Shown here: in pieces, positions 7,624-46,512 of the stretch
Layout of the letters: the number at the start of each line of letters is the position of its first letter
How positions within the stretch are numbered: the stretch's first letter is position 1
Assembly (NCBI GenBank): GCA_018660265.1
Contig: JABJKS010000022.1
Location: forward strand, 1-46,512
Direction: 5' to 3'
Length of the DNA: 46,512 nucleotides
Source: Rhodospirillaceae bacterium
Lineage (GTDB): Bacteria; Pseudomonadota; Alphaproteobacteria; GCA-2731375
Notes under the pieces: model-generated
The model's input: only the letters and a program-made list of their open reading frames with translations
Databases searched by the model: none
Told to the model about the DNA's origin: nothing
Translations under genes and position numbers: made by a program

Positions 7624-8586
7624 ATGAAGAGCATATCTAGATTCGCGACCTTGGCTGTACTAACCAGTGGACTTGCGCTGGCCGCAACGGCAAGCGAGGC
7701 AGCGGAATGCAAACCGTCTAAATGGGGTGCGGATGATGAAATTGGTGCGGCGAATTATGTCACGCCGCAACAGGTGCTGATGGCGACTAAATTAGTAAAA
7801 AAGGGTGAGAGCCATCCCCTCGGGATTGTTGTTGATCCAAAAATGCCGGCCTTTCCGCCGCGCTCCACTTCGCTGCAAATCGTCCAGCCGGGCCAGCATA
7901 ACGGTCGCAGCTTGGTTCAGGATTTCGGCTGGGATGCGGTCTACAACGATGATCTGGCACAACTTTGGTTCGGTACCGGGCCACAGATTGATGGCCTGGG
8001 GCATCTTGGTGAAGCCGGCGAATACTACAATTGCAACAAGGCCGTGGACTTCATCAATATTTCCGGTTTGAAGAAACTCGGTACGGATAAGATCCCACCG
8101 ATGATCGGGCGCGGCGTCATGGTTGATATGGCGAAGCATTTTGGCGTGACGACAATGGACGCAGGCCAGGCGATCAGTTCAGCCGATATTAAAGCTGCGG
8201 CGAAGGCACAGGGCGTTGAATTTCGCCAAGGCGATGTCGTTTTGTTCCACACCGGCTGGACCGATGGCAAATTAGCCTCGGACCCGAAAGCCTGGGTGTC
8301 AGGCGAACCGGGCCTGAACAACGAAGCTTTCGCCTATATGGCGACCATGAACCCCATGGCCGTGGGTGCCGATACCTGGGGCGTCGACGTGGTGCCACCC
8401 GCTAAGGGAGACAAGGTTTTTTATGGTCACGTCCATTTGCTGAAGAACAACGGCATTTTCATTTTGGAAACCATGAATACTGGCCGTCTGGCAAAAGAGG
8501 GCGTGCATGAGTTCATGTTCGTGCTTGGCCAGGCCCGCATTAAGGGCACGGTACAGATGATCATTAACCCTGTTGCCATGTGGTAA
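7624..8586 (+). CDS. Secreted cyclase-family (kynurenine formamidase-like) hydrolase
   Basis: 320 residues with a clear signal peptide (hydrophobic core LAVLTSGLALAATA, probable cleavage around SEAAE), so periplasmic or secreted. It belongs to the PF04199 metal-dependent hydrolase family (kynurenine formamidase, isatin hydrolase). The usual HxGTHxDxPxH metal motif appears here as FGTGPQIDGLGHLG, keeping Asp and the last His but not the first two. QGDVVLFHTGWTDG and HVHLLKNNGIFILETMNT are the other conserved blocks. GGGGAGAT precedes the ATG, and a strong terminator follows. It is likely to hydrolyse an amide or lactone-like ring. Confidence 0.82.
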   Translation: MKSISRFATLAVLTSGLALAATASEAAECKPSKWGADDEIGAANYVTPQQVLMATKLVKKGESHPLGIVVDPKMPAFPPRSTSLQIVQPGQHNGRSLVQDFGWDAVYNDDLAQLWFGTGPQIDGLGHLGEAGEYYNCNKAVDFINISGLKKLGTDKIPPMIGRGVMVDMAKHFGVTTMDAGQAISSADIKAAAKAQGVEFRQGDVVLFHTGWTDGKLASDPKAWVSGEPGLNNEAFAYMATMNPMAVGADTWGVDVVPPAKGDKVFYGHVHLLKNNGIFILETMNTGRLAKEGVHEFMFVLGQARIKGTVQMIINPVAMW

Positions 8587-8608
8587 CCGACTGAACATTG
8601 ATGATCGG

Positions 8609-8638
8609 ACGGGGAGCGCTCTGCCGCTCCCCGTTTTC
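8609..8638 (+). terminator. Rho-independent terminator after the cyclase-family gene
   Basis: GGGGAGCG (8611-8618) pairs perfectly with CGCTCCCC (8625-8632), extended by AC/GT outside and with a six-base loop. It is followed by GTTTTC and lies 25 bases after the stop codon. Confidence 0.88.
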
Positions 8639-8785
8639 ATTTGGAAGGCACGCGATTGTCCCTGCACAGTGCGCGTTCTTTTGCTGTCAAAAAGTTCAAG
8701 CGTCTGTCGCAATGTGGGTTGCGTGGGAACGATTGCTGGCAGCCATTGCCGACGCGCCGACAGGAGCGTATTTGAAGAACTTTCT

Positions 8786-10273
8786 CTACAGCTCATCTTT
8801 CAGACTGTAGCTATCCAGCATCCGATCCACCAGACTTTTGCTGCTGTCCCAGTCATAAGTGCGATAGCTGTGATTTTTGGTGACGAAGGTCGCGCCGGCA
8901 TAGAACATTTCGTATTGCGTATGGCGCGAGGCGAATTCGGAACCCACTGCGTCCCAGGCCAGTTTGAAGAACTTCACCCGGTCTTCGGAACTGGCGACAG
9001 GGGATTGCTGGGTGATGTTGATCAGATCCCGCAGCTCCGGATTAGCGAAATCGGCCACGGATGAGGGCAGCATGATCATGCCGCCGCCTGCCAGGTCCCG
9101 CAGCGCGGTCATGACAACGGGGTATAGCTGTTGGGTCAGAACCTGGGCTGCGTACAGGCTGTGGCGGTCGGGCACATAATAGTCGCCATAGTACCAGCCT
9201 TTGACTTCCATGGCCTGGACCATGGCTTCCACCATGGCACCTTGGGCGGCAAGTTGGCCCAATGCCTCGCGCACCTGGGGGAAGTTCGTGGTGCCGTTGG
9301 TTTCGGTAATTTTGTGAGCCAGTCCGATGAGGAATTTCATCTTCACCATCAGGCGTATCTGGGCCTGATAGTTCTGGTAGACGTGCGCGGGGGTGGCGTG
9401 GAATTGTTTTTGGCACATCTCCACATCGCTATCGATGAAGACCCGCTCCCACGGCACATGGACATTGTCGAAAAACAACACTGCATCATTTTCGTCAAAC
9501 CGGTGCGCCAGGGGGTTGTCGAATTCGCTTGGTGCCTGGGCCTCGTAGGACTTTCGCGACAGCACCTTCAATCCTTTAGCATTCATGGGAATGGCAAACG
9601 AAAGCGCGTAATTCTTATCGCCGGGCGGTAGGGGCTGGATGCAGGTGACGAAAACTTCATTGGCGACGATGGCGCCGGTTGCCAGCATCTTGGCACCATG
9701 TACGGTGATGCCCTTGTCGTCACGATCCACGACGCCCGCGGTGAGAAATTCCCCCTGTTGTTCGTGGGCGGCTTTGGAGCGGTCCGCCTGTGGGTTGATG
9801 ATGACATAGGTCAGGTACAGCTCGTTATCCCGGGCATAGCGGTAATAGTCCGCCAGGGCATTGGCCCGATCAGGGTCATGCGCCTCAATTACATCCCGGC
9901 CCATGTACATGCCTGATATGCACGAGGCCACATGGTCCGGTGCCCGGCCCAGAAAGCCGCCATGCAATTCGGTCCAGGCGACCAGGGCCCGGCGGCGGGT
10001 CACCAAATCTTCATAAGAATGGGGCAATTGCCAGATGCGGTTGGCGCGGGCATCCATTTCGGGGCCACCGGTGCCACCGTGGCCATCAGATACTGCAAAG
10101 GTCATCAGCTCCCGATTGCCCGGCTGGCTTTGAAAATCATAGAGCTGAGCCACCGAGGCGACAACATTGCGAAAGGCCGGGTGCGTCGTGACATCATCCA
10201 CCACGCCGCCATCCAAATAGACCTGGCGGCCATCGCGGAGGGATTGGGTATGCAGTTCTCCGGTCTTGATCAT
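8786..10273 (-). CDS. 4-hydroxyphenylacetate 3-monooxygenase-like flavin hydroxylase (HpaB family)
   Basis: 495 residues from the ATG at 10273. This is the FADH2-dependent, acyl-CoA-dehydrogenase-fold oxygenase component of two-component aromatic hydroxylases; it needs a separate flavin reductase (HpaC). Recognisable blocks are LRDGRQVYLDGGVVDDVTTH at the N-terminus, LYLTYVIINPQADRSK in the middle, GVVDRDDKGITVHGAKMLAT for substrate and flavin, then FFDNVHVPWERVF. No HpaC lies in the window. HpaB relatives also act on 4-nitrophenol, chlorophenols and pyrrole-2-carboxylate, so the substrate is open. It is divergent from the Ddn-like gene at 10341, sharing a short promoter region of under 70 bases. 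Confidence 0.9.
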   Translation of the reverse strand: MIKTGELHTQSLRDGRQVYLDGGVVDDVTTHPAFRNVVASVAQLYDFQSQPGNRELMTFAVSDGHGGTGGPEMDARANRIWQLPHSYEDLVTRRRALVAWTELHGGFLGRAPDHVASCISGMYMGRDVIEAHDPDRANALADYYRYARDNELYLTYVIINPQADRSKAAHEQQGEFLTAGVVDRDDKGITVHGAKMLATGAIVANEVFVTCIQPLPPGDKNYALSFAIPMNAKGLKVLSRKSYEAQAPSEFDNPLAHRFDENDAVLFFDNVHVPWERVFIDSDVEMCQKQFHATPAHVYQNYQAQIRLMVKMKFLIGLAHKITETNGTTNFPQVREALGQLAAQGAMVEAMVQAMEVKGWYYGDYYVPDRHSLYAAQVLTQQLYPVVMTALRDLAGGGMIMLPSSVADFANPELRDLINITQQSPVASSEDRVKFFKLAWDAVGSEFASRHTQYEMFYAGATFVTKNHSYRTYDWDSSKSLVDRMLDSYSLKDEL

Positions 10274-33895: not shown

Positions 33896-34591
33896 GTGGG
33901 TGCGTTAATTAAATTAGCTTTGGCAACAGTTTTTTTGGCCATCGCTTCGATTGGAAGCGCAGGTGCTGTAACGATTACCAATGGCTTCACATTCACAGTT
34001 GCTGATCAATTCGGAGGTGCGGTTGGCGTAGGCACACATTTTCATTCAAACACGGGTGGATCATTTGGTAATCCAGCCGGTTTGGCCGAAGTGGGACGGC
34101 TCAGTCCTGAAGAGACGCGTGGATTAGCAGAGTTCAATCTTGCAGGGCAATTGGTAGCAACATCGGCATTTGTTACCTTCGATGTTAACCAGTTAGGCGG
34201 TTTGTTTGGTCAGTCTAATTTTAACGGAAATATTGATATAAACGCCTATGTAGGGAACAATACTGAAGATTTGAGTGATTTTCAGATTGCAACGTCAGGT
34301 GCCGTTGGTAGCTTCAATTCGACGCCGCTTGTTGTAGGAAATACGTTAAGTTTCGATATTCTCTCTATCTTTAACGCCGCTATCGGAAATGGCGACACCA
34401 GCTTGGGTATTAGACTGCAGATAAACCCACTGTTGACCGCTAATGAGGCAATCGTTTTCAACAATTTTCTACTGTCAACGGATGACCGAACCTCAGTCGT
34501 ACCTGTCCCTGCCGCGTTGCCGCTTTTCGGAACGGCTCTGTTGGGTTTGGGCTTCGCAGGATATCGTAAACGCAAGGCAAAATCCGCCTAG
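33896..34591 (+). CDS. Secreted protein with VPxPA-CTERM sorting signal
   Basis: 231 residues with a GTG start behind GAGGAGG. A signal peptide (LALATVFLAIASIGSAGA) leads to a Gly/Asn/Ser-rich beta-strand-like body with no known domain. The C-terminus is a textbook PEP-CTERM-type tripartite signal: VPVPAALPLFG, a hydrophobic helix TALLGLGFAGY and a basic end RKRKAKSA. Such proteins are processed by exosortase and displayed on the surface or in biofilm matrix. No exosortase gene is in the window. Base composition is clearly more A+T-rich than its neighbours, consistent with later acquisition. Own terminator follows. Confidence 0.88.
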   Translation: MGALIKLALATVFLAIASIGSAGAVTITNGFTFTVADQFGGAVGVGTHFHSNTGGSFGNPAGLAEVGRLSPEETRGLAEFNLAGQLVATSAFVTFDVNQLGGLFGQSNFNGNIDINAYVGNNTEDLSDFQIATSGAVGSFNSTPLVVGNTLSFDILSIFNAAIGNGDTSLGIRLQINPLLTANEAIVFNNFLLSTDDRTSVVPVPAALPLFGTALLGLGFAGYRKRKAKSA

Positions 34592-40084: not shown

Positions 40085-40978
40085 ATGAGTGAGAAAATTG
40101 CCGTCATCGGCATGGGGCAGATGGGCTCCGCCATGGCCCGCCGTTTGAGCGAAGCGCAACACGACGTCATGGGCTTTGACATCAACGAAGCAACGCGGCA
40201 AAGCCTTGTCGATCAGGGCGTTAACATGGCCGATAGCCTGGGCGCTGCCCTGGCGGGGCGAACCACGGTGCTGTCGTCTTTGCCGGATCCAAATGCGGTC
40301 AAAGGCGCCTGGATGGGGGAGGGGGGCATCATCGACCTGGCCGAGCCCGGCTCCATGTTGGTGGAGTTGAGCACCATTGATCCCGATACCATGCGCGAGG
40401 TGGGCGCAGCCGCTATTGCCCAGGGCCACCAGGTGCTCGACTGTCCCGTCAGCGGCAGCCCGAATGAAGCCGGTACGGGTAAGTTGGTATTGTTGGTCGG
40501 TGGTGAGGCCCCGACGTTGGAACGGGCCGGGCCTCTGTTCGATCTGTTGGGTCAGACCTGGCAGCACACCGGCGCGGTGGGCACGGCAAAGGTGGTGAAG
40601 ATCGTCAACAACATGATGTCCATGGGCAATGTCCTGGTCGCCTCGGAAGCGTTTTCCCTGGGCGTGGCGGCGGGCGTTGATCCGCAAAAACTGTTCGATG
40701 TCATCTCGGTCAGTGGTGGCCGTTCGCACCATTTCACCAAACGTTTCCCCAATGCCTTGGAAGACAATTTCGAACCTGGCTTCAAGATGGAGTTGGGGGA
40801 GAAAGACCTGTCTTTGGGTGTCGAATTGGGCCGGGCCATGAAAATGCCCACACCCACAACATCCCTGGCGCGGGAGATGTACGCCCTGGCCCTCGCGGAA
40901 GGCTATCGGGGCAAGGACATCGTGGCGCTGATGGACATGTATCGGGAATGGGCCCGGAATACTAAGGTTGAGGCATAA
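40085..40978 (+). CDS. NAD(P)-dependent oxidoreductase, 3-hydroxyisobutyrate dehydrogenase family
   Basis: 297 residues from ATG 40085; a TTG four codons upstream is less likely. Rossmann motif IGMGQMGSAMARRL, then DCPVSGSPNEAGTGKLVLLV (substrate-binding DxPVSGG-like; here GSP instead of GGx), GAVGTAKVVKIVNNMMSMGN with the catalytic Lys and Asn, and a C-terminal helical domain. It oxidises a beta-hydroxyacid (3-hydroxyisobutyrate, tartronate semialdehyde or D-phenylserine type) or reduces an imine. 18 bases behind the amidohydrolase gene and 2 bases before the next. Confidence 0.93.
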   Translation: MSEKIAVIGMGQMGSAMARRLSEAQHDVMGFDINEATRQSLVDQGVNMADSLGAALAGRTTVLSSLPDPNAVKGAWMGEGGIIDLAEPGSMLVELSTIDPDTMREVGAAAIAQGHQVLDCPVSGSPNEAGTGKLVLLVGGEAPTLERAGPLFDLLGQTWQHTGAVGTAKVVKIVNNMMSMGNVLVASEAFSLGVAAGVDPQKLFDVISVSGGRSHHFTKRFPNALEDNFEPGFKMELGEKDLSLGVELGRAMKMPTPTTSLAREMYALALAEGYRGKDIVALMDMYREWARNTKVEA

Positions 40979-40980
40979 TC

Positions 40981-41268
40981 ATGAAAGTCTTCGTTACGTT
41001 CACGCGCAAAGCACACGCCACGGCGGAGGATTTTCAACGCCTGATCGAGGCGGAAGACAAATACGCCTTTGCCCTGTATGGCGGCGACAAAATCCGCGAA
41101 ATGTACTCCCGCGCCGATGGCCAGGGTGCTATCGCTGTCCTGGAATGCGACGACGCTGATCACGCAAACGCCTTGATGGCCGAATTGCCCATGGTGAAAA
41201 AGGGCCTACTGGACGTCGAATGCCACGGTGCCCTGCCGTATGCGGGCATCGCGGCACTCGGGTCGTGA
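40981..41268 (+). CDS. Small protein, dimeric alpha/beta-barrel-like (muconolactone-isomerase-like)
   Basis: 95 residues. MKVFVTFTRKAHATAEDFQR starts a strand-helix pattern, and QGAIAVLECDDADHANALMA with a PMVKKGLLDVEC end follows. This matches muconolactone isomerase/YciI-like ferredoxin-fold proteins in shape rather than by any clear catalytic residue. It follows the dehydrogenase by two bases, so it belongs to the same operon and probably to the same pathway. Its stop lies one base from that of the convergent VOC gene. Confidence 0.65.
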   Translation: MKVFVTFTRKAHATAEDFQRLIEAEDKYAFALYGGDKIREMYSRADGQGAIAVLECDDADHANALMAELPMVKKGLLDVECHGALPYAGIAALGS

Positions 41269-41269
41269 G

Positions 41270-41641
41270 TTATTTGGCAGCGTAAAATGCCAGTTTGTTG
41301 CCGTCCAGGTCGCGGGCATAGGCAAATGTCATGCCACCGCCACCACGGGGGCCGACTTCACCTTCATCGCTACCACCCAGTTCCAGGGCCCGGGCGTGAA
41401 GCTTGGCGACGGTCTCCGCACTATCTACCATCAGCGCGATCATCGTGCCGTTGCCGACCGATGCGGCCTTGCCATCAAAGGGTTTGATGATGCCGAACAT
41501 GGCTGCGCCCGCCTTGCTTGACCACATAACCAGGCGATCATTTGGGGTCATTCTCTTCAGACCTTGGTCTGCGAATAATGCATCGTAGAAGGCAGCGGCT
41601 TTTTCCAGGTCGTTCGTTCCAAGGGTGGTGTAACCAATCAT
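41270..41641 (-). CDS. VOC-family (glyoxalase-like) protein
   Basis: 123 residues from ATG 41641. MIGYTTLGTNDLEKAAAFYD is the standard VOC start, with two beta-alpha-beta-beta-beta modules. VSIL-type metal ligands are weak: the conserved first His is Gly/Tyr here (IGYTTLG), and the late GGGGMTFAYARDLDGNKLAFY keeps the DxDGN element. It may be a non-enzymatic binding or resistance protein or a dioxygenase relative. The 190 bases upstream contain no supported gene. Confidence 0.88.
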   Translation of the reverse strand: MIGYTTLGTNDLEKAAAFYDALFADQGLKRMTPNDRLVMWSSKAGAAMFGIIKPFDGKAASVGNGTMIALMVDSAETVAKLHARALELGGSDEGEVGPRGGGGMTFAYARDLDGNKLAFYAAK

Positions 41642-41831
41642 AACAATAATAACCTTTCCGTTTTTGTAGGGGTGTTTAAGCGTCGAGCAGTATGAGCAGA
41701 GCCTGTGTATAGCAGCCTCCGCTAGGGTTTTAATTTCGGGCGGCGGCGGTTGCCATGTCTGTCTCCTGATCCTGGGTTTGTCCTTGCCATATGACACCGG
41801 CACGAAATGCCGCGTCGCAAAATGCTGTCAC

Positions 41832-42686
41832 TCAAACCGGGCGGTCGCCGTTGACGGTGACGCGATGCATCAGGCGATGGACGTCGCCATAGTCGGCAAT
41901 GGCATAATGCTGGGTGCAGCGGTTGTCCCAAAAGGCGATGGAATTTTTCTGCCAGCGGAAACGGCAGCTTAATTCCGGGGTTTTGATATGTTCATAGAGA
42001 TGATCCAGCACCATTTTGGATTCCTTACGCGGCACACCCCGCAGGCGTTGGGTAAAAATGGCATTGACGAACAGCGCCTTGCGTCCGGTGACCGGGTGGG
42101 TGCGCACAACGGGATGCTCCACCGGCTGCATAACTTGGCGGGCATCCTGGATTGAATCCTGCTTCGCCCCGTCGTCTTGGTGCAAAGTCTCGAATTTGGC
42201 CCCGTCCGCACTATGGACCGCGATCATACCGTCCAGATAGCGCTTCATAGAGGGAGAGAGGGCATCGTAAGCATCGTACATATTGGCCCACATGGTATCG
42301 CCCCCATGTTCGGGACAAATGCGCGACAACAGGACAGAGCCCAGGGGCGGTTCCTCAGCGAAGGTGACGTCACTGTGCCATTGATTGGCGGCAGAGCGCG
42401 CATCCTTCTTGCTTTCAAGGATCAAGACCTCCGGATGATCCTCCAGGTTCGGGGTAAAGGGGTGCACTTGCAGACTGCCGAAGTGCCGCGCGAATGCCAC
42501 ATGCTCGGAGGGTGAAATGTCCTGATCACGAAAAAATATCACCTGATGCTCCATCAAGGCATCATGGATTTCCTGAAACAATTGATTGCCAAGGTCCTGA
42601 CCCAGGTCGACGCCGCTGATCTCGGCACCCAGGGCACCTGCAATGGGTGATACGGTGATTTGTTCATAGGATATGGCTGGGGACAT
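41832..42686 (-). CDS. TauD/TfdA-family Fe(II)/2-oxoglutarate dioxygenase
   Basis: 284 residues from ATG 42686 (MSPAISYEQ); ATG 42704 is an alternative. ITVSPIAGALGAEISGVDLG is the diagnostic start of the family, and HQVIFFRDQDISPSEHVAFA follows. Iron ligands: His and Asp in NQWHSDVTFAEEPP and His in NRCTQHYAIADY; Arg near MHRV binds 2-oxoglutarate. Members hydroxylate taurine, sulfonates, alkyl sulfates or phenoxyacetates. It is divergent from a second, similar oxygenase at 42900, separated by about 210 bases, suggesting a shared regulator or an old duplication. Confidence 0.93.
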   Translation of the reverse strand: MSPAISYEQITVSPIAGALGAEISGVDLGQDLGNQLFQEIHDALMEHQVIFFRDQDISPSEHVAFARHFGSLQVHPFTPNLEDHPEVLILESKKDARSAANQWHSDVTFAEEPPLGSVLLSRICPEHGGDTMWANMYDAYDALSPSMKRYLDGMIAVHSADGAKFETLHQDDGAKQDSIQDARQVMQPVEHPVVRTHPVTGRKALFVNAIFTQRLRGVPRKESKMVLDHLYEHIKTPELSCRFRWQKNSIAFWDNRCTQHYAIADYGDVHRLMHRVTVNGDRPV

Positions 42687-42899
42687 GGCTGGATTTTTCC
42701 TCATTATTCTATTGTTGGGCTTGATCTACTGAACACACGTAGAAGCAAAAGTTAAAGTGTCGGGATGCCTAAGCCAAGAGGGGTAGATTATGACCAGGCA
42801 AAATTGGCTATGGGCAAACAAGGCGGCTTTGCCTGATAATACAGTATCGCGGTCGCAATTGGGAATTGTCCTTGAGGCAACAACTGTTGGATTTTTATT

Positions 42900-43733
42900 A
42901 TGAGCATAACCGTCACACCTATCGCAGGTGCCATCGGGGCGGAGATTGGTGGCGTCGATGTGGCCACTGACCTGCCCCCGGATACGATCGCGGCTATTCG
43001 CCAGGCATTGTTGGATCATTGTGTGATCTTTTTCCGTGATCAGACGCTGGATGTGGAACGCCATAAAGCTTTCACCCGGCGCTTCGGTGAATTGTTCATA
43101 CATCCGAATTTTCAGCTTGGCCCAGGTCAGGGAAATGACCATCCCGAGATCGTTTATGTGCGTCGGGAACCAGGCGACGGTCGGGTGCTGGGCCAGGGCT
43201 GGCACGCGGACACCACCATGATGCCGACACCGCCCATGGGGGCAATACTCTATGCCATGGAGACACCTGCGGTCGGCGGGGATACACAGTTCGCAAACCA
43301 ATATCTTGCCTATGACGCCCTATCGGATGGCATGAAAACGATGTTGGAACCGCTTCGTGCTGTGCATAACGATACCCGCGTCGCCGGGCCCAATACGGGG
43401 CTGAATGCCCAACGCGCCAGTCAGGTGCGTGCAGATGATGATTGGCGCGCTACGGAAAGTCTGCATCCCGTTGTCCGGGTTCATCCTGAAACCGGGCGCA
43501 AGCTTCTATTTCTCAATGGCATCTACGTCCACCGATTTGAAAATATGAGCGTGGCAGAAAGTCAGCCATTATTGGATTTCCTATATGCCCACGCTGTACG
43601 CCCGGAATTCACCTGCCGCTTTCGCTGGCGTCCCGGCTCCATCGCCTTTTGGGACAACCGTTGCACCTTGCACGATGCCATCCACGACAGCCACGATGCG
43701 GTCCGCCATATGCAGCGGACGCAGATCGCCTAA
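42900..43733 (+). CDS. TauD/TfdA-family Fe(II)/2-oxoglutarate dioxygenase
   Basis: 277 residues. SITVTPIAGAIGAEIGGVDV at the N-terminus; DHCVIFFRDQTLDVERHKAF next. Iron ligands His102 and Asp104 (GQGWHADTTMMPTPP) and the late His in NRCTLHDAIHDSH, with Arg in MQRTQIA for 2-oxoglutarate. It is clearly a paralogue or distant duplicate of the minus-strand gene at 41832, with the same blocks throughout. Substrate unknown. The next gene, also an oxygenase, starts 144 bases downstream. Confidence 0.93.
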   Translation: MSITVTPIAGAIGAEIGGVDVATDLPPDTIAAIRQALLDHCVIFFRDQTLDVERHKAFTRRFGELFIHPNFQLGPGQGNDHPEIVYVRREPGDGRVLGQGWHADTTMMPTPPMGAILYAMETPAVGGDTQFANQYLAYDALSDGMKTMLEPLRAVHNDTRVAGPNTGLNAQRASQVRADDDWRATESLHPVVRVHPETGRKLLFLNGIYVHRFENMSVAESQPLLDFLYAHAVRPEFTCRFRWRPGSIAFWDNRCTLHDAIHDSHDAVRHMQRTQIA

Positions 43734-43877
43734 CGTCAGTGGGCAAAGTCCGGATTTGTACAATTCCTGGCTTGCCGCTACCATGACAAGGGAAACATCT
43801 CACGGCGAAGCGTATAATTTATTTCGTGATCCAGGTTCAGGTCGCGGCCGATCTGCATCAACGCAAGGATGGGATTT

Positions 43878-44696
43878 ATGGATCTCCCTATCAACACTGT
43901 GCCTGCCATTCAGCTTCCATCACAGGAAAGCGTTGAAGACGTCACCGGGCAGGTGATCTTGCGCGAGGCGGCGGCAGGATTTCGCGACAGCGGCGTCCTA
44001 TTACTCCACAACGCCTTTCCAGTGGAATTCGTGGAAAGCCTTCATGGGGCATATATATCCCGCTACAGCGCCTATTTTGATGATGCGGAACATGACGACG
44101 CACTCAAGGTCGGTGATAGACGTTTTATGGTCACCGTTGAAATGGCGGCGCCGTTCAACTCACCTCGCCTTTACGCCAACCCTGGCGCGCTTGGCATTAT
44201 CCGCAAATTGCTGGGAGAAAATTGTGTATTGGGTAGTTTTGGCTCGGTGGTTTCATTGCCTGGTGCCGCAGAACAGCATGTGCACCGGGACCATCCAGGT
44301 TTGTTTGGTGACGATCAACTGGATGCGATCCTGCCAAGTTTCGCGGTCACAATGTTAGTGCCGCTTGTTGAAATGAACGAAACCAGCGGGACAACGAGAA
44401 CCTTCATGGGCAGCCATGTTGTCGATGTCGATAAGAAGACGGAGTATCAGGATCCGGTTGTCCCTGTCGGCTCATGTTTGTTGATGGATTACCGGCTGTT
44501 GCATGGCGGCCTGGCAAACCGTTCCAGCCAGGTGCGTCCTTTGCTTTACAACGTCTATTGCCGGCCCTGGTTTCGCGATGATTTGAATTTTCGCCGGCAA
44601 CCTGCCATCAAGCTGAAAGACAAAGAATATCGCCGGGTCCCGAAATCCCTTCAGGATCTGTTTTCGGGACGGGGGGATATCCATGGCGGCACCTGA
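43878..44696 (+). CDS. PhyH-family (phytanoyl-CoA dioxygenase-like) Fe(II)/2OG oxygenase
   Basis: 272 residues from ATG 43878, preceded by AAGGA at good spacing; an ATG three codons earlier overlaps that site. SGVLLLHNAFPVEFVESLHG is the typical opening. Iron ligands are His136 and Asp138 (EQHVHRDHPGLFG) and His209 (DYRLLHGGLANRS); Arg220 (SQVRPLLYN) should bind 2-oxoglutarate. VPLVEMNETSGTTRTFMGSH is the conserved beta segment. PhyH enzymes hydroxylate or halogenate diverse substrates, including peptides and carrier-bound acids. It precedes the kinase-PqqD fusion by 44 bases on the same strand, so the two are probably co-transcribed. Confidence 0.92.
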   Translation: MDLPINTVPAIQLPSQESVEDVTGQVILREAAAGFRDSGVLLLHNAFPVEFVESLHGAYISRYSAYFDDAEHDDALKVGDRRFMVTVEMAAPFNSPRLYANPGALGIIRKLLGENCVLGSFGSVVSLPGAAEQHVHRDHPGLFGDDQLDAILPSFAVTMLVPLVEMNETSGTTRTFMGSHVVDVDKKTEYQDPVVPVGSCLLMDYRLLHGGLANRSSQVRPLLYNVYCRPWFRDDLNFRRQPAIKLKDKEYRRVPKSLQDLFSGRGDIHGGT

Positions 44697-44740
44697 GACG
44701 CACAATCCCTGCAGCCGGGCGACGTCCTAGCTCATACGCA

Positions 44741-46123
44741 ATGTTGGAAACCGACAAAGCGGCATTGAAATGGGCCCGCGGCCATGTGGGCTGGCAACGG
44801 CAAGAGTTGGTTGCCGGACGGGCATGGAGCAATACATTCAAGCTCAAGGCCGTGGACGGATCCAACACGTATCTGAAAATCCTGCCAGTTGGGTATGGCG
44901 ACGAAGTTTCCGCCACGGCGGTAATCGCCCAACATTTTCCTGACAGCCTGCCGGAGGTGATCGCCCACGATATTGAGCACGGATATCTTCTGCTGCGCGA
45001 CCACGGTGGTACAGCCCTTAGTTCGAATATGGTTAGCCACACGCATCGGCTGCTTTCCTTTTATGCCAGCCTGCAGGCCCGGGCGGCGAAGCTGCCGGGA
45101 CTTCTCGCCGAACTGCCGACCTGCGATGTTACCCGGGCGCTTTCAGACTTGCTGTTCAGCCTTTCACCGGATCGCGGCAGCGCGCCCCCAGGCATGGCAA
45201 TGGCAACACCTTTGGCGGATTTTATCGGTGAGGCTGAGGCTGCCTACTATTGGCATGCGCTGACGGCAGGTTCGGCGTTGATCGAAAGCCAGTTGGCTTT
45301 GGCCAAGGCATTGCCGCCGACACTCGCGCACGGTGATCTGCACGTAAAGAATGCTGCTGTGCTGCCGAACGGTGGGTGTGTCCTCTATGACTGGAGCGAA
45401 GCCGCAATCGGCCCGGCGGGCCTCTCGCTGTGCAATCCGCTGTTATTGCCGGTCAGCCAAGCCATCCGCGTCTTGGCCGGCATCCGTAAAGACAACGGCA
45501 ATTCGGGATATGAACTTAGCCGGGTTGATAGCTCGTTCGAGGCCCTGGCTGACGTCATCGGCTGGCATCAGATATACCGCAGCCTGATTTGTGGCTATAT
45601 CGAAAAACTGGCTGGTGACGGTTATGCCGCCCGGGAAACATTGCTGCAGGGGTTGCCCGGAAGCCTGTTGGCAGGCGCGATGCGCTGGTTGGTTAGCTGG
45701 TCCTTGGCGGCTGCTTACGACGACGCACAAAAACGGGCCGGGGCCGTGTTGCTGCGCGCGGGCCTTGACGAAATTCTAGAGTTGCTGCGTTTTTTTGAGG
45801 CCGGGTCAGAGGTTGGCAATGAAACAGACGAGACAGCGCGCCGGCTTTATGCCCGGGCGCCAAATATTACAGCCAGGCAAGAGGCAGATGAGGTTTTGCT
45901 GATCGATCCCCACGGCGAGGTTATCTGTCATTTGAATGTGACGGCTGGCGGGCTGTGGCAACTTTTAGGTCAACCAACTAGCCTGCATCAGGCCATTGCT
46001 GAAATGCAAATGGCCTTTCCCCATGCGCTACCCAAACAGATTGCGGCCGACGCCCTATCTGTGATCACGGATTTCGTGGCCAACGGATTGGTTGTGCCGG
46101 CTGCAACAAATAAGGTTCCATAG
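44741..46123 (+). CDS. APH-type kinase fused to a C-terminal PqqD-like domain
   Basis: 460 residues. The first 340 or so form an aminoglycoside phosphotransferase-like kinase: ATP Lys in TYLKILPV (Lys46), catalytic loop HGDLHVKN (197-204, Asp199 and Asn204) and metal Asp217 in VLYDWSEAAIGPAG. Residues about 370-452 (ARAPNITARQEADEVLLIDP, then LNVTAGGLWQLL and PKQIAADALSVITDFVANGL) have the strand-turn-helix layout of PqqD, the RRE domain that binds RiPP leader peptides. The fusion is unusual to my knowledge. No ribosome site precedes the ATG. It overlaps the convergent PqqD-like gene by 59 bases. Confidence 0.8.
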   Translation: MLETDKAALKWARGHVGWQRQELVAGRAWSNTFKLKAVDGSNTYLKILPVGYGDEVSATAVIAQHFPDSLPEVIAHDIEHGYLLLRDHGGTALSSNMVSHTHRLLSFYASLQARAAKLPGLLAELPTCDVTRALSDLLFSLSPDRGSAPPGMAMATPLADFIGEAEAAYYWHALTAGSALIESQLALAKALPPTLAHGDLHVKNAAVLPNGGCVLYDWSEAAIGPAGLSLCNPLLLPVSQAIRVLAGIRKDNGNSGYELSRVDSSFEALADVIGWHQIYRSLICGYIEKLAGDGYAARETLLQGLPGSLLAGAMRWLVSWSLAAAYDDAQKRAGAVLLRAGLDEILELLRFFEAGSEVGNETDETARRLYARAPNITARQEADEVLLIDPHGEVICHLNVTAGGLWQLLGQPTSLHQAIAEMQMAFPHALPKQIAADALSVITDFVANGLVVPAATNKVP

Positions 46124-46397
46124 CCGCAGGCATAAGCAAATTTTTTCGCAAAAGTTCCTCGACCAGATCGTTCAAATCATCCGCAATCTTTGCGGGAACC
46201 TCATCGGGGAAGGCTGCCGCCAGCAAGGACATAATCTCGTCGACACTATTTGCCTCGTTAAACTGCCGCCAGATTACTGTGGCCAATGAATTCAGGTCGT
46301 GTCGTGCGCCTGTGTCAGGCGCTACCAGGAAGGTGCGTCCCTGGCTGGAACGTTCTTTGACGCCAGGCGATTTGTCAACGCCGGAGTAAAAACACAC
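46065..46397 (-). CDS. PqqD-like protein, 5' end replaced by an insertion sequence
   Basis: The frame from GTG 46397 gives 110 residues, but the first eight (MCFYSGVD) are encoded by the IS end. Genuine sequence begins near KSPGVKERSSQGRTFLVAPD, followed by GARHDLNSLATVIWRQF and DEVPAKIADDLNDLVEELLR, the PqqD/RRE pattern (ligand-binding strand, then helices). It is nearly full length for the family, so only the first few residues and the promoter are lost. It may be expressed from the IS or be silent. It overlaps the kinase-PqqD gene tail to tail by 59 bases, and the two PqqD-like segments resemble each other. Confidence 0.72.
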   Translation of the reverse strand: MCFYSGVDKSPGVKERSSQGRTFLVAPDTGARHDLNSLATVIWRQFNEANSVDEIMSLLAAAFPDEVPAKIADDLNDLVEELLRKNLLMPAAMEPYLLQPAQPIRWPRNP

Positions 46398-46512
46398 CAG
46401 TGGCCGGAGTAAAAATACACCACCTCCTATAAAGCAATACCCGGTGTTGCGGGTTGTCCCGGTAGTCCATAGGAGGGCCCCGCGCTGCTTCGTGTAGCGC
46501 TTTAGCGGTACG
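46373..46512. mobile_element. End of an IS21-like insertion sequence (runs off the window)
   Basis: From TGTCAACGCCGGAGTAAAAA at 46373 onward the sequence is that of an IS21-type terminus. A 20-bp motif GCCGGAGTAAAAACACACCA (46380-46399) is repeated with one change at 46403-46422, as expected for the multiple transposase-binding sites near IS21 ends. AGGAGGG near 46472 and the remaining bases probably lead into istA beyond 46512. The transposase gene is not in view, so the family assignment rests on the terminal repeats only. Confidence 0.65.

Follow-up and report, generated by a model that had tools for sequence, protein, structure and literature searches.

The window analysed here is the whole of contig C10 (JABJKS010000022.1, 46,512 nucleotides) of a Rhodospirillaceae bacterium, whose genome assembly (5.5 Mb in 121 contigs) is 97% complete. 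Close to its right-hand end, a single open reading frame (ORF) encodes a 460-amino-acid protein in which an APH-type kinase is followed by a C-terminal PqqD domain, predicted to be a RiPP recognition element (RRE; RiPP, ribosomally synthesized and post-translationally modified peptide). A convergent gene, now divided by an insertion sequence (IS), encoded a second enzyme-like protein ending in such a domain, and a gene for a PhyH-type 2-oxoglutarate (2OG)/Fe(II) oxygenase lies upstream of the kinase gene. We propose, with confidence and doubt about equally matched, that the locus is an RRE-guided peptide-tailoring cassette, a variant of the peptide phosphorylation of linear polyphosphorylated peptide (LPP) or paeninodin pathways in which an APH kinase stands in for HprK and the substrate is supplied in trans.

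The kinase-RRE fusion

As shown in Table 1, the fusion is encoded in one frame with both Pfam domains above their cut-offs, which confirmed what the initial annotation had recognized, an intact kinase (HGDLHVKN loop, Asp217) with a C-terminal PqqD-like domain. The kinase part matched the APH profile and carried the catalytic HxDxxxxN pattern (D199, N204) and the metal-binding aspartate D217. D199, H201, N204 and D217 were invariant when the fusion was aligned with three other APH-like proteins.

Residues 384-451 matched Pfam PqqD (PF05402) with an E of 1e-7 and 32.6 bits against a cut-off of 23.4; the named NCBIfam PqqD models gave no match to this segment at E 0.01. AlphaFold2, run with 17 sequences, predicted strands and helices in the order of an RRE, with pLDDT of 81-97 across the ten-residue blocks of 361-450. 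The top Foldseek match was TbiB1 with leader peptide (TM 0.86 of the target), followed by TigE and TfuB1, with PqqD itself lower, and leader-bound B1 proteins of lasso pathways made up three of the four matches under E 0.001. Leader-bound B1 proteins (TbiB1/TfuB1) were also the top three in VIA-align (Z 12.2, 12.1 and 11.8); the structure prediction that the initial annotation had named as a check thus gave an RRE fold for the fusion.

A profile search of PDB sequences gave LppB (9x8z, E 8e-6), an RRE from a phosphopeptide RiPP pathway, as the best match of the fusion RRE. In the alignment, from which the numbering was read off, N399 of the fusion falls on N33 of LppB and D437 on D70. The tyrosine of the leader is held by D70 of LppB, and N33 holds the kink formed at its proline; complex formation with the YxxP leader is weaker in D70A and almost lost in N33A (PMC13381572). 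Among 17 aligned domains including that of the fusion, the aspartate was present in 16, and the asparagine in nine, with aspartate or glutamate in the other eight. The domain of the severed partner keeps both N and D; the PqqD domain encoded on contig C2 of the same genome has aspartate for the asparagine. We predict that the tail of the kinase is an RRE with its leader-binding residues present, and N399 and D437 make leader-peptide binding its candidate function.

A partner gene divided by an insertion sequence

The convergent PqqD-encoding frame was open up to the contig end and had been annotated as a free-standing gene starting at 46397. The proposed GTG start lies inside an IS, which begins at 46373, and the segment is what remains here of a longer gene, its 3' end, cut off by the element; of the arrangement described initially, the APH-PqqD fusion, PhyH and a second PqqD domain stand and the free-standing gene does not. 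The partner domain, at 46134-46331(-), matched Pfam PqqD with an E of 7.7e-11 and 42.6 bits, so that both segments exceed the cut-off for the family to which they had been assigned. The best named NCBIfam PqqD model scored 30.6 bits for this fragment against a cut-off of 100.

A terminal stretch of 133 bases in the window recurred at other contig ends, and four contig ends (C10, C8, C62 and C68) were identical from TGTCAACG (window 46373) inward. The element is of IS21 type, because C32 holds a relative with 80% identity at this end whose products include IstB (IstB_IS21, E 5.9e-72) and a transposase C-domain of the Mu type. Three contigs, C90, C96 and C25, terminate in the opposite IS end. 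The flank on C25 starts with GCGATT, the hexamer that also stands directly before the IS in the window, consistent with a 6-bp target duplication; C8 and C90 pair likewise through another six bases, and no partner ends for C62, C68 and C96 were found among the contig ends seen. Extension past 46512, which the initial annotation had named as a check, leads in this way through the IS and the duplication to C25.

When the flanks of C10 and C25 were joined, a frame of 706 amino acids ran from C25:107218 in frame to window 46065, with coding-like codon-position GC throughout its linker. The C25 part accounts for 605 amino acids (L058:9218-11032). An internal ATG stands just ahead of the partner PqqD domain (residue 596 of 706), from which this domain may also be made alone. 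The IS21-type element separated the methyltransferase part from its RRE, and the cassette is at least half broken. The original gene order was MFS (major facilitator superfamily), methyltransferase/TPR/PqqD and, convergent with it, PqqD/APH kinase and PhyH, the 3' ends of the two PqqD-encoding genes overlapping by 59 bases. Joined at the duplication, C10 and C25 show that the locus once consisted of two convergent RRE-tagged enzymes with a PhyH oxygenase. RiPP clusters are expected to combine an RRE with one or more modification enzymes, and here two RREs were found, each in frame with a putative enzyme.

The transporter adjoining the locus, directly upstream of the methyltransferase frame on C25, is of the MFS type (Pfam, E 2.4e-51) and not MsbA-like; the earlier statement that no transporter is visible no longer holds once C25 is joined. 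No leader peptidase was seen at the locus, where no family search for an archaeal-type signal peptidase or NTP transferase was made.

The PhyH stop codon lies 44 bases before the kinase ATG on the same strand, as annotated initially, and Pfam supports the family (Table 1). The ATG at 43878 has a better-spaced AAGGA than the start at 43869. The product shows an HxD...H...R pattern (H139-R-D141, H212 and R223 in the numbering of a 275-amino-acid product), which we take to be the 2OG oxygenase motif. Two divergent genes for TauD-family dioxygenases, window 41832-42704(-) and 42900-43733(+), lie directly upstream of the PhyH gene, making three 2OG oxygenases in less than 3 kb. Elsewhere in the window, a protein encoded at 33896-34591(+), which had no Pfam match at E 0.001, ends in VPVPAALPLFGTALLGLGFAGYRKRK, a C-terminus resembling VPLPA/PEP-CTERM sorting signals.

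Table 1. Features of the locus in window coordinates, with small-protein genes given by contig or locus.
Feature	Position	Strand	Basis
PhyH-type 2OG/Fe(II) oxygenase	43878..44696 (frame opens 43869)	+	Pfam PhyH E 2.1e-12
APH-type kinase with C-terminal PqqD/RRE, 460 aa	44741..46123	+	Single open frame; both Pfam domains over cut-off
APH kinase domain, residues 29-226	44825..45418	+	Pfam APH (PF01636) E 1e-7, 32.4 bits vs cut-off 23.2
Catalytic loop HGDLHVKN, residues 197-204	45329-45352	+	Motif position
Second Asp, Asp217	45389-45391	+	Motif position
Predicted RRE (PqqD) fold, residues 369-453	45845..46099	+	AlphaFold2, Foldseek/VIA, LppB alignment
3'-end overlap of the two convergent PqqD-encoding frames	46065..46123	both	59 bases
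3' fragment of larger gene, PqqD/RRE parted from methyltransferase-TPR by the IS	46065..46372	-	Pfam PqqD; IS boundary; continuation on C25
End of IS21-type element, contig stops inside	46373..46512	+	Repeated contig ends; C32 relative; 6-bp duplication
Small Tat-leader YxxP protein	L005:11275-11532 (G000:C2)	-	
Small Tat-leader YxxP protein	L089:7059-7319	+	
Small Tat-leader YxxP proteins	L091:7493-7921, 8301-8939	+	
Small Tat-leader YxxP protein	L093:8377-8724	+	
Small Tat-leader YxxP proteins	L099, L105-L133		

HprK-like kinases and YxxP small proteins in the class

In the loci that were opened, PqqD domains similar to that of the fusion occurred with HprK-like kinases, either fused to them (L091, L092 and L093) or encoded by an adjacent gene (C2 of the window's genome). 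In the three fused proteins Pfam detected the PqqD part alone, and their kinase part matched the C2 kinase across its full length, with E values that ran from 8.5e-21 or better up to 7.5e-19. The label 'HprK-like' is weakly scored, with 18.7 and 27.6 bits for Hpr_kinase_C against a cut-off of 33.3; for TIGR04352, whose cut-off is 200, the four proteins scanned scored between 29.5 and 47.6 bits, the C2 kinase having 29.5.

Small proteins encoded nearby have a leader resembling those of twin-arginine translocation (Tat) and tails that are rich in Ser, Gly, Lys and Arg or have Pro-Ser-Pro-Cys. None reached a cut-off in NCBIfam (three scanned) or Pfam (five scanned). A model built from 11 small proteins found matches in 36 of 385 class genomes; the genome of the window had a single match with E under 0.01, which lies on C2. 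The small protein was present in 20 of the 21 class genomes with a PqqD match (22 listed genomes minus G362, which matched in the kinase only; the exception is G323) compared with 36/385 overall (Fisher p 1e-22). With the eight seed genomes removed, the counts were 15/16 and 28/377 (p 2e-18). These p values overstate independence because the genomes are related. The PqqD gene and the small-protein gene were within 2 kb of each other in nine of the 20 genomes, 25-42 kb apart on one contig in eight and on different contigs in three.

Two of these eight, G309 and G222, were opened, G222 being read by eye. In G309 a distance of 37 kb separates the small YxxP protein from the HprK-like kinase/PqqD pair (L180 and L181, G309:C3:150001-170000 and 172001-192000), and an ABC transporter and an HlyD-type protein adjoin the PqqD gene. 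Ten proteins scanned in the intervening stretch included glycosyltransferases, a Bac_transf sugar transferase, Wzz and Asn synthase; judged by these matches, the stretch resembles a surface-polysaccharide locus.

The pattern RR...YxxP was found in 36 of 40 distinct frames taken from the 30 best-match loci (L099, L105-L133), and two more frames had YxxP by eye just beyond the reach of the pattern; of the two without it, one was cut short and one was off frame. The tyrosine and proline were constant and the middle residues varied (AA, VT, TA, LA, GA, TV, SA and others). Since all model seeds have YxxP, the count measures conservation within one family and is not independent evidence. YxxP is a known leader motif of lasso RREs (PMC12710340) and of LPP RREs too (PMC13381572), so that the small proteins are good candidates for RRE substrates. 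This evidence comes from class relatives and C2; at the locus in the window no ORF of this kind was found. LPPs were called restricted to Bacillota in a 2026 paper (PMC13381572), and it is possible that the small Tat-leader YxxP proteins are their counterpart outside that phylum.

Proposed function and alternatives

In the proposed cassette, the PqqD tail of the kinase would grip the leader of a small, ribosomally made protein, in all likelihood a YxxP leader, and the C-terminal part of that protein would be held at the APH active site. ATP-dependent phosphorylation would then take place on Ser/Thr or on a hydroxyl made by PhyH. The convergent gene would have supplied a second enzyme of the same design, with a SAM (S-adenosylmethionine) methyltransferase-like domain, TPR and a C-terminal RRE, and the three enzymes would have cooperated on a peptide substrate. 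The gene for that substrate probably lies at another place in the genome, and the candidate is the small YxxP protein at C2:85359; supply of the precursor in trans is our guess.

Paeninodin-type lasso kinases are HprK-like, and HprK and APH are unrelated kinase folds. The HprK-related kinase A system (TIGR04352) pairs a kinase with PqqD, as on C2, whereas the kinase of the window is of the APH type. The LPP system (LppA/LppK/LppB) has an RRE of the same sequence family as the fusion, a kinase working with an RRE, a YxxP leader and glycosyltransferase-rich loci (PMC13381572); class relatives of the window share with it the HprK-like kinase, the RRE and the YxxP small proteins. The window itself differs from LPP, in which a separate HprK-like kinase acts with a discrete RRE, in clusters described with an archaeal-type signal peptidase and an NTP transferase (PMC13381572). 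The APH kinase fused to its RRE has a methyltransferase-RRE and PhyH as neighbours, and neither a precursor nor a peptidase was seen beside it. The lasso kinases PadeK, ThcoK, SyanK and PsmK modify precursors in RRE (B1) pathways, as proposed here, but are separate proteins in pathways that require a macrolactam cyclase and a B2 protease (PMC9266682). Phosphorylation, methylation and hydroxylation all occur in lasso tailoring, the last reportedly aided by the B1 RRE (PMC9266682), and the kinase, methyltransferase and PhyH together therefore fit the lasso pattern. A lasso system as such was rejected, as the whole genome (97% complete) gave no Transglut_core3 (B2 leader peptidase) match at E 0.001.

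RREs fused to modification enzymes are common (PMC12710340), as in the window, and the words kinase, phosphotransferase and PF01636 are absent from the main text of that article. A description of an APH-RRE fusion was not found among the articles listed in the literature searches, to which subscription journals and preprints did not belong. The initial annotation had treated an RRE on a small-molecule-type kinase as an oddity. Its view agrees with the class II-V lanthipeptide core enzymes, none of which is reported to have an identifiable RRE (PMC10604976). However, APH-type kinases already act on RiPP precursors, CaoK by peptide phosphorylation in vitro (PMC9486802) and TsaC by genetic evidence (PMC8153245), and the combination is therefore less odd than was stated.

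Several results weigh against the peptide-tailoring cassette. The kinase half is poorly modelled, with a mean pLDDT of 38.8 when modelled alone (four sequences) and an unreliable structure in the AlphaFold2 model of the full fusion as well; no convincing solved relative of it was found (best E 0.037), and its profile search reached E 0.0032 to a short, unrelated-looking protein. The C25 part of the partner matched TPR_1 (E 5.2e-5) and Methyltransf_28 (PF02636, E 2.7e-4) below the Pfam cut-offs, and since this gene is broken, the pathway may no longer run. The Tat-leader model gave at best E 8.5 in the window and the C25 end, the candidate substrate is encoded on a separate contig, C2, where an HprK-like kinase and a PqqD of its own accompany it, and the fourth VIA-align match of the fusion RRE was a non-RiPP protein, the mycobacterial methyltransferase Rv2067c (Z 10.6). 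Full-length matches of the fusion were confined to one of 61 genomes of relatives, one of 15 of the order, one of 385 of the class and one of 398 of the phylum. Some genomes belong to more than one set, and the single positive is always the window's own genome.

As to the precursor, which the initial annotation had also failed to see, none with a Tat or YxxP leader was found at the locus. Among 139 small ORFs (25-150 amino acids; window 40900-46512 and C25 105000-109177), seven had Y..P and none looked precursor-like by eye; precursors of other, non-Tat and non-YxxP kinds may be present there. Of the RiPP-type interpretation given initially, the PqqD assignments and, for the fusion, the predicted RRE fold are supported, and the free-standing PqqD partner is not.

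The remaining matches to the fusion span its PqqD part or, in a few cases, the kinase part alone, the best kinase-part relative, in G362, sharing 31% identity across residues 6-232. The genomes searched yielded no other fusion of this kind, so that the check on conserved linkage named in the initial annotation had no homologues to draw on. A single-protein scan of genome contigs returned 31 pattern matches and no relatives, and no APH-type kinase-PqqD fusion was found in plasmids, phages or viral contigs (the last searched with exact peptide patterns only). Three loci from an alignment scan were rejected as APH fusions: L096 lies on the same contig as L091 of G240, an HprK-like/PqqD fusion; L097 and L007 of G030 hold one and the same PqqD gene, with an HprK-like frame adjoining by eye; and L098 looks chimeric. 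The motif H[GND]Dx[HN]xxN was absent from all 17 open frames of at least 296 amino acids around PqqD matches, drawn from matches down to E 2.6e-9 with the HprK-like G240 and G172 left out. Pfam assigned six of the 17 as TTL-PqqD (two), PqqD-TylF (one), TENA/PqqC-PqqD (one) and PqqD alone (two), and several of the remaining frames look like non-coding extensions. Relatives of the methyltransferase-TPR part occurred in four of the 385 class genomes (residues 3-500, E 2e-41 to 2e-76) as frames of 536-550 amino acids without PqqD, so the PqqD fusion of the partner is likewise unconserved; the surrounding 11-20 kb, where genes were called in a crude way, yielded no relative of PqqD or APH.

Other PqqD fusions were seen in the course of these searches. 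L175:1124-3673(-) and L176:891-3350(+) encode tubulin-tyrosine-ligase-like proteins of 820-850 amino acids with an internal PqqD and a C-terminal part that is HprK-like by eye. At L164:4442-5713(-), PqqD is fused to a TylF macrocin O-methyltransferase domain, another pairing of RRE and methyltransferase.

The main rival of the peptide-tailoring cassette, unlikely in our estimation, is small-molecule tailoring, in which APH and PhyH would modify a sugar, an amino-sugar or another metabolite and the PqqD tail would be a leftover or serve oligomerization or docking. It takes this place because the closest solved relative of PhyH is kanamycin B dioxygenase (E 2.4e-11), whose substrate is an aminoglycoside and not a peptide, a further point on the negative side of the balance. 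Pfam APH comprises mainly small-molecule kinases, and NCBIfam gave a weak match of the fusion kinase to Mph(F), at E 0.004 and with 16.6 bits where the cut-off is 650. For a leftover, however, it would be odd that two unrelated neighbouring enzymes both end in an RRE and that N and D are kept in both.

Less probable still is modification of a large protein, in which the RRE-like tail would dock a surface or secreted protein as the C-terminal folds of protein methyltransferases might. A similar C-terminal fold was found by VIA-align in the non-RiPP proteins PKMT1/PKMT2 of Rickettsia (Z 7.7-9.2) and the protein hydroxylase NO66 (Z 6.3-6.7) besides Rv2067c, and the partner scored 20.9 bits for PF02636 against a cut-off of 23.3; a eukaryotic relative in that family methylates a protein. 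Yet the sequence likeness of the tail is to peptide-binding RREs (LppB, TbiB1, TfuB1) and not to these proteins, and the tool cautions that Z under 8 may reflect merely a common arrangement. We assign the same low probability to a decaying island, in which acquired genes, one of them broken by the IS, would leave the kinase fusion without a present role. The insertion in the partner is consistent with decay, as is the lack of a full-length relative in the order, of which 14 further genomes were searched, but the kinase and RRE frames are intact and the catalytic and leader-binding residues are kept. A dehydration of the class V lanthipeptide or thioamitide kind, with a HopA1-type lyase removing the phosphate that the kinase places on Ser/Thr, is very improbable: CaoK and TsaC belong to the same Pfam kinase family (PMC9486802, PMC8153245) but lack an RRE, as class II-V enzymes in general are reported to do (PMC10604976), and are partnered with such a lyase, 96% of HopA1 proteins adjoin a phosphotransferase (PMC8153245), and none of the eight proteins to which the search was confined (six in the window, two on C25) had a HopA1 domain.

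The peptide-tailoring cassette could also be part of something wider, although we regard this as unlikely: an undescribed, class-wide system of RRE-guided kinases acting on small Tat-exported YxxP proteins and linked to surface-polysaccharide loci. Its kinase module would be swappable: in the loci opened it is HprK-like, either separate or fused, and the window's genome would add two further RRE-bearing enzymes, the APH kinase and the methyltransferase, both of which would act in trans on that one small protein.

If the proposed cassette is real, the RRE-fused APH kinase would be a new self-targeting enzyme for peptide phosphorylation, and leader-guided modification would have been assembled by attaching RREs to unrelated enzymes within a single locus. 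The pattern of HprK-like kinase, RRE and YxxP protein would extend the phosphopeptide family beyond Bacillota and make its function testable in another phylum.

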